In this document: piece by piece, positions 42,970 to 50,899 of the stretch
How the letters are laid out: each line of letters opens with the position of its first letter
Numbering within the stretch: position 1 is the stretch's first letter
The notes under the pieces: model-generated
Told to the model about the DNA's origin: nothing
Seen by the model: the letters and a program-made list of their open reading frames with translations, nothing else
Database searches by the model: none
From: an uncultured Alphaproteobacteria bacterium
GTDB taxonomy: Bacteria > Pseudomonadota > Alphaproteobacteria > HIMB59 > GCA-002718135
Assembly (NCBI GenBank): GCA_902576125.1
Contig: CACGUF010000001.1
Span: forward strand, 1 to 64,000
Direction: 5' to 3'
DNA: 64,000 nucleotides
Made by a program: the position numbers and the translations under genes

Positions 42970-44325
42970 TTAACAATCTAAAGTATTGTCTCTTTCCCAT
43001 TGAGTAATTATGTTAGATTTATTTGATTTTGATTTTTTGAAGCCAATTCTCTTTTCTTGAGATGAATTATACTTTTTAATTTCTCTATTTTTTAACGTTA
43101 TGTAGGAATTAATAACATCTTTACCAAAAGCAGACTTAAGAACTTTGCTTTTATTTAGATTACTTAATGCCTGATTTAAACTTAATGGTAATTTTTTTGC
43201 ACCTTTAACCTTATGAGCTTCCTCATACATATTTACGTTAATAGGTTTACCTGGGTTTCTTTTTTTATCTAAACCATCTAATCCTGCTGCAATAATTCCA
43301 GCTTGTAATAAATAAGGATTAGTTGCTCCATCCATTAACCTTAATTCAAATCTACCTGATCCGGGAACACGTATCATATGAGTTCTATTATTACCAGAAT
43401 AGGTAATAGTGTTAGGAGACCAAGTAGCTCCAGAATCAGTAACAGGAGCATTAATTCTTTTATAACTATTAATGGTTGGATTAAACCACGCAGTTAAAGC
43501 TTCAGCTGAGTTCATAATTCCACCCATAAAATGGTAAGCAGTTTTTGATAAGCCTAATTGATCTTTTTTATCTAAAAATAAATTCTTACCTTTTTTATTC
43601 CAGATTGATAGGTGCGCATGACACCCATTTCCAGTTTTATCTATAAAGGGTTTTGGCATAAAGGTAGCTCTTAAACCTACTTTTTCTGCTAAAGTTCTAA
43701 CCATAAATTTAAAAAAAACATGACGGTCAGCTGTTTGTAGGCAGTCTGAAAAATCCCAATTCATTTCAAATTGTCCATTAGCATCTTCATGATCATTTTG
43801 GTACGGACCCCAACCAAGCATAATCATTGAATCACATATACCTCTAATTAAATCATACTGACGCATCAATGCAGATTGATCATAACAAGGTTTATCAGCA
43901 ATATCTTTTTGATCTGCAATAGAATCACCACTTGGAGAAATTAAAAAATATTCGCATTCAACACCACTTTTTAAGTGCATATTTTTCTTTGCTAATTTAT
44001 TAATTTGATTACGTAACATAACACGAGGAGAGGCATCTACTGGTTTACCATCCATCCATAAATCTGCTGCTAACCAACCAACATCCATTTGCCATGGAAG
44101 TTGTATAAAACTATTCGGATCAGGTATTGCTGCCATATCTGGGTCAGATGGAGACATATCTAAGTAAGTAGAAAAACCCGCAAATCCTGCACCTTCTTTT
44201 TGCATTTCTTTTATAGATTGAGCAGGGACTAATTTAGATCTAAGTACTCCAAAAAAATCTACATAACTTATTAAAAAGTATTTTATTTTTTTCTTTTTTG
44301 CGACCTCCGCCAGATTTATAGCCAT
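42970..44325 (-). CDS. gmaS: Gamma-glutamylmethylamide synthetase (GS family)
   Basis: KYFLISYVDFFGVLRSKLVP, GAGFAGFSTYLDMSPSDPDM, QNDHEDANGQFEMNW, TGNGCHAHLSIW; closely resembles GmaS of methylated-amine-utilising Alphaproteobacteria. Confidence 0.88.
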   Translation of the reverse strand: MAINLAEVAKKKKIKYFLISYVDFFGVLRSKLVPAQSIKEMQKEGAGFAGFSTYLDMSPSDPDMAAIPDPNSFIQLPWQMDVGWLAADLWMDGKPVDASPRVMLRNQINKLAKKNMHLKSGVECEYFLISPSGDSIADQKDIADKPCYDQSALMRQYDLIRGICDSMIMLGWGPYQNDHEDANGQFEMNWDFSDCLQTADRHVFFKFMVRTLAEKVGLRATFMPKPFIDKTGNGCHAHLSIWNKKGKNLFLDKKDQLGLSKTAYHFMGGIMNSAEALTAWFNPTINSYKRINAPVTDSGATWSPNTITYSGNNRTHMIRVPGSGRFELRLMDGATNPYLLQAGIIAAGLDGLDKKRNPGKPINVNMYEEAHKVKGAKKLPLSLNQALSNLNKSKVLKSAFGKDVINSYITLKNREIKKYNSSQEKRIGFKKSKSNKSNIITQWERDNTLDC

Positions 44326-46183: not shown

Positions 46184-46284
46184 AAATGGCCAAAATTTAG
46201 GAAAAATATACCCATAATTCACTTAAAAAAACAATAATTTACTGTTGAATCTCATAATAAAGGTCTAGATAGAACTCGTAATTT

Positions 46285-46340
46285 ATCGTTCATCTCATTA
46301 ATTGAGTGAGACGGAAGTAGGTAAGATCCGAAGGAACGCA
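46285..46340 (+). ncRNA. Probable glutamine (glnA-type) riboswitch aptamer
   Basis: ATCGTTCATCTCA...TGAGACGGAAGTAGGTAAGATCCGAAGGAACGCA: P1 CGTTC 46287-46291/GAACG 46334-46338, P2 TCTCA/TGAGA, conserved GACGGAAGTAGG and CCGAAGGAACGC. Confidence 0.78.
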
Positions 46341-46378
46341 GTTCATTTGATTTTTCTTTTTACTTCTTTTTTTTTGAT

Positions 46379-46407
46379 GAGTTAAACGGTTATTTTGAAT
46401 TTAACTC
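46379..46407 (+). promoter_or_regulatory. Possible riboswitch expression-platform hairpin adjacent to the amtB ribosome-binding site
   Basis: GAGTTAAA 46379-46386 / TTTAACTC 46400-46407, 3 nt before AGGAGG 46411-46416. Confidence 0.55.
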
Positions 46408-46420
46408 GTAAGGAGGCAAA

Positions 46421-47911: not shown

Positions 47912-47943
47912 AAAAGGGCAGTATTTTTTACTGCCCTTTTTTT
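47912..47943 (+). terminator. Intrinsic terminator of the amtB unit
   Basis: AAAAGGGCAGTA-loop-TACTGCCCTTTT followed by T-run. Confidence 0.9.
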
Positions 47944-49483: not shown

Positions 49484-50899
49484 TTAATATAACCTTAGAT
49501 ATTCTTTGAGTTCCCAATCTGTAACAGCTTGATGATATCTTTCCCATTCATCATTTTTATATTGAACATAGGAATTTAACATCACTTTACCCATTACTTT
49601 TTCTGCAATTTTATTTTTTTGTAAAGCTTCAGTAGCTTGAAGTAAATTTCTTGGAAGACGTCTTATGCCAAGCTTTTTCATATCTTCAGGTTTTAAAGCG
49701 TAGAGATCAAAATCAGATGGTTTTCCAGGATCAGTTTTATTTTGAATACCATCTATTGCAGCTGATATAGTCATACCAAGTGCTAAGTAAACATTCATTG
49801 TTAAATCAGCCGCACGGTTTTCTATACAGTATCTATTTTGTGGTAATCGAAATTGTGCTGAGCGATTATTATGACCATACGTAATATTAGTTGGTGCCCA
49901 CGTATGAACTCCACCCTCAAAACCACCTACAGTCGGTACTAACCCATTATATGAATTTACTGTTGGACAAGTAATTGCAGTGATAGCTTCTGAATGTTCA
50001 AGCAATCCACCAACTGCATGCATTGCATCTTGTGACCATTTATCACCATCTTTAAAAACATTTGTATTTTTCTTTATGTCATTAAGTGAAAAATTTATAT
50101 GCCCTCCTGACCGCCAATCACCTATAGTTGGTTTTGGCATGAAGGTGACAAACATATCATGTTTTTTCGCTACTTCTTTTAAAAGTATTTTTAAAAATAC
50201 TAATCTATCTGCCATTTGTAGAAGATCAGTATAATGAAAATCTAATTCAAATTGAGAATAAGCACCTTCAGCAACAACATCGTGTAAGTCCCATCCTAAC
50301 TCACCTAATATATCCATCATTTCTTTTAAAAAATGCATTGAATCTAAAGAATATTCAACATCATAGCCAAATGCTTGTCTTCTTGGTTGAATGCCATGAG
50401 GAGGATCATTATCTATTGCCTTAACAGGCTCACCTTTTTCATTGTATTTCATTACAATGAACTCAGGCTCTATGCCTGCAAAACCTTGATACCCTTGTTC
50501 TTGTTTTTCTTGAATAATTTTTTTAAGAGCTTGTCTTGGACAAACATTGTAGGGAGCGCCTTCCCAAAACAAATCAGCAAATATTATTGCTGTTGTTTTA
50601 TCCCACGGACAAACATATACAGCATTAAGATCAGGAAGCATTATTTGATCAGGATCAGCTGGTGTTAATTCAGGAACAAAAGATACTGAATGAACTGCAA
50701 ATTGTGGACCTTTACCCATACATAAAGCTTCAAAATCACTCATAGGAACAGGTTTAGTTTTTGGTATCCCGTGCATATCAATCCAACTAGATAAAACATA
50801 TTTAACCCCTGCATCTTCAAGTCTTTTTTTGGTCGATGCTATTTCAGGTTTATTTCTTTCTATAGCCTCGCTTAAGCTTTCATAATAAATTTTGCTCAT
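49484..50899 (-). CDS. Glutamine synthetase-family ligase (type III / gamma-glutamyl-amide synthetase-like)
   Basis: GIEPEFIVM, AEGAYSQFELDFHY, RSGGHINFSL, NNRSAQFRLPQ motifs; diverged from GmaS and GlnT-like paralogs in the window. Confidence 0.84.
   Translation of the reverse strand: MSKIYYESLSEAIERNKPEIASTKKRLEDAGVKYVLSSWIDMHGIPKTKPVPMSDFEALCMGKGPQFAVHSVSFVPELTPADPDQIMLPDLNAVYVCPWDKTTAIIFADLFWEGAPYNVCPRQALKKIIQEKQEQGYQGFAGIEPEFIVMKYNEKGEPVKAIDNDPPHGIQPRRQAFGYDVEYSLDSMHFLKEMMDILGELGWDLHDVVAEGAYSQFELDFHYTDLLQMADRLVFLKILLKEVAKKHDMFVTFMPKPTIGDWRSGGHINFSLNDIKKNTNVFKDGDKWSQDAMHAVGGLLEHSEAITAITCPTVNSYNGLVPTVGGFEGGVHTWAPTNITYGHNNRSAQFRLPQNRYCIENRAADLTMNVYLALGMTISAAIDGIQNKTDPGKPSDFDLYALKPEDMKKLGIRRLPRNLLQATEALQKNKIAEKVMGKVMLNSYVQYKNDEWERYHQAVTDWELKEYLRLY

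Follow-up and report, generated by a model that had tools for sequence, protein, structure and literature searches.

The ammonium transporter gene amtB1 in the window (the whole 64,000-nucleotide stretch of DNA that was analysed) is preceded by a new member of the known glutamine riboswitch class, type 1 (glnA), for which glutamine binding is predicted from the sequence. In comparative folding models of the leader this riboswitch probably controls AmtB1 translation as an OFF switch (rough probability 0.6), the reading that was preferred because the modelled accessibility of the Shine-Dalgarno sequence (SD) falls once the aptamer forms. From class membership and the modelled folds we infer glutamine binding by this aptamer, the direction of control and the translational level.

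Identification of the aptamer

The window was compared with 4227 Rfam families using cmscan. RF01739 (Glutamine/glnA riboswitch) was the sole family above its gathering score and matched 46285-46342 of the forward strand over the full length of the model (1-53 of 53), scoring 62.4 bits where the cut-off is 35; over all 64 kb of the window this gives E = 2.1e-11. A glutamine riboswitch upstream of amtB had been proposed in a sequence-only reading of this DNA, with a covariance-model search as the check; the strong match and the Amt gene just downstream bear this out, the aptamer sequence quoted there was found at 46287-46339, and the P1 pairing given there was recovered (Table 1). In the Rfam alignment a three-way junction P1-P2-P3 with the conserved core CGGAAGUA and GAAGGAACGCA was found; P2 is formed by TCTCA (46293-46297) and TGAGA (46307-46311), and P3 is short (GG 46320-46321 with CC 46328-46329), its third pair being non-canonical, which leaves two canonical pairs. 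The aptamer sits in the 5' leader of a nitrogen gene on the same strand, about 78 nt before the Amt ATG. In an alignment of 14 orthologous amtB1 leaders (A1) P1 and P2 were paired in 97-100% of cells, and the aptamer is not regarded as a chance match because its core is invariant in these leaders while the flanks diverge. Membership of the Downstream-peptide/Glutamine-II family (type 2, RF01704) was rejected at 15.4 bits against a cut-off of 33; the match was limited to the shared 5' part (the CGUUCA start and P2 are common to both).

Table 1. Features of the amtB1 unit and aptamer sites in the genome of the window (C, contig coordinates)
Feature	Position	Strand	Evidence
Glutamine (glnA, type 1) riboswitch aptamer, single copy upstream of amtB1	46285..46342	+	RF01739 62.4 bits; core invariant in 14 orthologs
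P1 closing helix, CGTTC 46287-46291 / GAACG 46334-46338	46287..46338	+	Rfam alignment; 97% of cells paired in A1
Pyrimidine toggle strand (strand one) TACTTCTTT	46361..46369	+	predicted free and bound folds
Second toggle strand (strand two) ATGAGTTAAACGGT	46377..46390	+	92.8% of cells pair with aptamer 5' strand
SD-adjacent hairpin, GAGTTAAA 46379-46386 / TTTAACTC 46400-46407	46379..46407	+	90% of ortholog cells paired
Shine-Dalgarno AAGGAGG	46410..46416	+	sequence; conserved in orthologs
Ammonium transporter gene amtB1, 426 aa	46421..47701	+	PF00909 200.4 bits; TIGR00836 203 bits, below cut-off 343
Small membrane-protein ORF, 57 aa	47722..47895	+	sequence; intrinsic terminator follows
Intrinsic terminator closing the amtB1 unit	47912..47940	+	12-pair stem with T tail
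Tandem aptamers between glnB and glnA	C1:123411-123532	-	
Tandem aptamers upstream of second amt	C35:913-1032		

Leader between aptamer and start codon

A T-rich run and a second hairpin downstream of the aptamer, both named in the sequence-only reading, are present, the former at 46346-46375 and the latter ending 3 nt before AGGAGG (46411-46416). Besides the aptamer, two downstream strands persist in the 14 aligned leaders. Strand one (TACTTCTTT) is complementary to the aptamer core GAAGTA (46314-46319) and also to the SD; its motif reads TACTTC in the window and ACTTCC in several relatives, complementary to core GGAAGTA and SD AAGGAGG. At 12 of 14 positions strand two (ATGAGTTAAACGGT) can pair with the aptamer 5' strand ATCGTTCATCTCAT (46285-46298); its GAGTTAAA portion is also complementary to TTTAACTC, which lies immediately 5' of the SD. 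The hairpin adjacent to the ribosome binding site (RBS) by itself leaves the SD uncovered; it is the pyrimidine element a little upstream (46363-46369) that covers the SD, and this element can alternatively pair with the aptamer core. These mutually exclusive complementarities (aptamer versus SD side) are conserved in the orthologs. A U run after strand one is confined to the closest relatives: it was found only in the window and in L034, partially in L056, and is absent from the remaining orthologs; the core-pairing strand persists in orthologs without it.

Proposed mechanism

Without glutamine, the linker UACUUC (46361-46366) would pair with the aptamer core GAAGUA, and in most orthologs the aptamer 5' strand AUCGUUCAUCUCAU would be bound by AUGAG..AACGGU as well, a pairing that is not in the predicted fold of the window. 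In this ligand-free state the SD would be more accessible and the transporter would be made. With glutamine bound, core and 5' strand would return to the aptamer; the linker strands set free in this way would form the hairpin beside the SD, and CUUCUUU would cover AAGGAGG, so that importer synthesis would stop. OFF polarity fits the physiology, ammonium uptake being off when glutamine is ample. In the loci read, the aptamer precedes nitrogen genes: glnA, amt genes of three paralog groups and the CP-ATP-grasp operon.

Comparative tests of the proposed expression platform

The proportion of A1 cells in which strand two pairs with the aptamer 5' strand (Table 1) compares with 21-47% for slid partners, and that for the SD hairpin with 9-43% when slid. 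Strand two showed 7 additional pair types, all one-sided; most substitutions in this 3' strand keep the pair intact (G/A opposite U, C/T opposite G), and both of its mismatches become pairs in L036. The fixed aptamer strand leaves no two-sided covariation in the 14 leaders, so that only changes on one side could count.

Ensemble folding was performed on the 14 leaders with an energy model that ignores glutamine and tertiary contacts, and the same leaders with dinucleotide-shuffled linkers served as control. Pairing of the aptamer 5' strand into the linker was 0.43 versus 0.056 ± 0.030 in shuffles, and mean core-to-linker pairing was 0.71 versus 0.30 ± 0.065 in shuffles. When the aptamer was enforced, SD accessibility went down by 0.17 on average versus 0.04 ± 0.04 in shuffles (0 of 100 shuffles as high); the 14 leaders are related, so these shuffle statistics are not 14 independent tests. 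Accessibility was evaluated in the 13 leaders that were parsed (L039 was left out) and fell in 12 of them, modestly in some, with a modelled change of about zero in L037 and L044; for the window the modelled values were 0.37 free and 0.14 bound. The ensemble of the window itself gave a predicted core pairing of 0.76 and a 5'-strand pairing of only 0.01, and the strand-one switch alone is predicted there because the stronger SD hairpin of the window out-competes strand two. With the core-linker hairpin, 46285-46376 folds at -20.6 kcal/mol versus -12.1 kcal/mol for the aptamer alone. Because the ligand is missing from the energy model, the P1 probability was close to zero in all leaders, and this value was left unused; the minimum free energy of the whole leader alone was uninformative (z = -1.3). 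Control of AmtB translation at the RBS, which the sequence-only reading attributed to glutamine, is supported at the level of modelling by this comparative folding.

Alternative explanations

The same core-linker hairpin could instead belong to an ON switch at the level of transcription. In the ligand-free RNA, GAAGUAGGU..AAGA of the core would pair with UCUU..ACUUC and form, with the U9 directly after it (46367-46375), an intrinsic terminator; glutamine would free the core and allow read-through into amtB1. The folding energy of 46285-46376 and the position of the U run immediately after the hairpin agree with this, as do the tested glutamine riboswitches, which are ON switches (PMC6316151). 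It is nevertheless unlikely, given that the U run has the narrow distribution described above while the core-pairing strand persists elsewhere, that a terminator scan calls none in the 46367-46375 region, and that a glutamine-induced ammonium importer makes little physiological sense. An intrinsic terminator was rejected as the main platform on the grounds of the unconserved U run and the scan; a terminator-like reading restricted to the window and L034 is possible. A translational ON switch, in which glutamine binding would expose the SD, has the polarity of cyanobacterial gifB and of Prochlorococcus type 2 (PMC6316151), but the modelled SD accessibility moves the opposite way in 12 of 13 parsed leaders (slightly in some) and the physiology again speaks against it, which makes it improbable.

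Two further explanations concern the RNA elements themselves. Chance complementarity is common between an AT- and pyrimidine-rich linker such as this one and purine-rich SDs, and the orthologs are related; the downstream pairing elements might then be low-complexity coincidences and the aptamer might act by another route, for which we see little likelihood in view of the controls with dinucleotide-keeping shuffles and slid partners. A relic aptamer, or one with a different ligand, is very improbable: several relatives have no aptamer (L040-L043, L047, L055) and ligand binding is a prediction, but the 62-bit match is full-length with an invariant core and the identical aptamer class is found on glnA and other amt genes throughout the genus.

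The amtB1 transcription unit and its neighbours

Against TIGR03644, the amt-2 protein of the window's genome scores above the cut-off and amtB1 fails to reach it. The 57-aa ORF, for which no Pfam match was found, is probably co-transcribed with amtB1. Two glutamine-synthetase-like genes flank the amtB1 region, at 42970-44325 (-), a type III glutamine synthetase (GS) by NCBIfam (627.7 bits), and at 49484-50899 (-), which is below every curated cut-off; the Rfam scan of the window placed no glutamine aptamer at either gene. A TGTTGAATCT-like stretch (46245-46270) recurs 5' of the aptamer in several orthologs (L034, L038, L044, L046) and is a possible promoter or operator.

Distribution and regulon

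The aptamer was found in 100 of 102 genomes of the host alphaproteobacterial genus; a sister family of the same order, sampled with 24 genomes, had none. A sample of 338 alphaproteobacteria yielded it only from two genomes of the host genus and four of one other family. The closest relatives of amtB1 come from marine single-cell and metagenome-assembled genomes labelled uncultured Alphaproteobacteria, Pelagibacteraceae or MarineAlpha5, and the order appears to include the HIMB59 lineage as well. The genome of the window carries five aptamer copies at three sites (Table 1). Among the relatives fetched, distinct tandem sites numbered 27 at glnA, 16 and 15 at two marine-subtype amt groups, and 17 at a CP-ATP-grasp gene (sites in the class that matched none of the reference proteins), the last with one additional single copy near a contig end; the amtB1 aptamer, where present, is always single (13 distinct). 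Across the genus the regulon comprises glnA, as many as three amt genes and a CP-ATP-grasp/Alpha-E/transglutaminase operon, each with the aptamer upstream.

This operon, a predicted peptide-synthesis system, is preceded by a tandem aptamer in the host genus, and a clearly similar protein in another alphaproteobacterial family by a single aptamer with a 42-nt leader (loci L194:2679-5874, genome G111, and L183-L186). Finding one gene behind two different leader designs suggests that the CP-ATP-grasp system belongs to nitrogen metabolism. Among the papers searched, none names both a glutamine riboswitch and the CP-ATP-grasp/Alpha-E/transglutaminase system.

Nitrogen control proteins

Operons of the glnK-amtB type are under NtrBC control. 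Nitrogen-dependent control of amtB is common to those systems and the present one; here, however, amtB1 is without an adjacent PII gene and the protein cascade was missing from the host genus, with GlnD in 0 of 102 genomes and GlnE in 0 of 28 of the more complete ones (E. coli and Caulobacter as positive controls for both), and with no gene of the genus reaching the NtrC cut-off. Sub-threshold NtrC-type matches are probably NtrX or other regulators. The genomes are 53-96% complete, so absence in one genome means little and absence in all is meaningful. A single P-II gene was found in 24 of the 28 genomes. The window holds no glnK or glnB, as the sequence-only reading had rightly stated; the one PII gene of the genome lies at C1:123595-123915 (-), 77 kb from amtB1 on the same contig and directly upstream of glnA, with the tandem glutamine aptamer between the two.

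We tentatively consider, with more doubt than for the amtB1 switch, that in this marine genus glutamine RNA switches might govern the uptake of ammonium, the synthesis of glutamine and the CP-ATP-grasp/Alpha-E/transglutaminase operon, a putative peptide-ligase system, as OFF switches at least for amtB1, and might replace the GlnD-GlnE-NtrBC cascade, the single PII being left without known modifying enzymes. This would be a testable RNA-based answer to nitrogen regulation in streamlined alphaproteobacteria without GlnD, GlnE or NtrC.

Relation to known glutamine riboswitches

The class was reported from metagenomes in 2010 with links to ammonium transporters, GS and PII and with tandem copies (PMC2864571). 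The amtB1 leader shares with this RF01739 type 1 description (Weinberg 2010) the aptamer fold, the core letters and the association with nitrogen genes including ammonium transporters, and tandem copies occur in the genome of the window at sites other than amtB1; the hosts reported were cyanobacteria and marine metagenomes, whereas here the host is an alphaproteobacterial genus. In a 2018 review glutamine riboswitches were described as restricted to cyanobacteria, and the links to GS, PII and ammonium transporters as documented solely in environmental sequences from uncultured strains (PMC6316151); at least part of these orphan links gain a host in the marine alphaproteobacterial genus. The experimentally tested cyanobacterial riboswitches activate expression on glutamine (PMC6316151), and the polarity predicted by the amtB1 folding model is opposite to these cases tested so far. 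The aptamer class is identical to that of the Synechocystis gifB riboswitch (type 1; Klahn 2018 as reviewed in PMC6316151), which controls the glutamine synthetase inactivating factor and is ON, whereas here the predicted target is an ammonium transporter and the predicted polarity is OFF. The platform model thereby gives a defined OFF-polarity prediction. The host genus, the regulon, the missing cascade and the proposed expression platform are what is added here; a literature search, mostly without subscription papers, turned up no previous account of them.

Aptamer-less leaders and tandem sites

The amtB1 leaders L040:3850-4000, L041:100-235 and L055:3850-4000 contain remnants (a ATCGTTCAT-like start and GAACTCGTAAGGAGG) and seem to have lost the aptamer core; L041 gave no Rfam match. 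In the aptamer-less amtB leader L053 of a related lineage, no other riboswitch was found above the Rfam cut-off. Tandem sites were compared before glnA, amt and ATP-grasp genes (L001, L002, L006, L130 and 68 other tandem sites) and share a near-invariant linker GCATGCAAAGTTATNAAATCGTTC and a downstream element CATAGCTAAGCATGA (before glnA, CATAACTAGAGCATGA). GCATGCAAAGTTATNAAATCGTTC and CATAGCTAAGCATGA can pair around the second aptamer (CAUGC with GCAUG, AGUUAU with AUARCU), and the length of the internal loop differs on both sides together; conservation of both elements is too high to reveal covariation. Together the two could belong to the tandem element as a component not described before.
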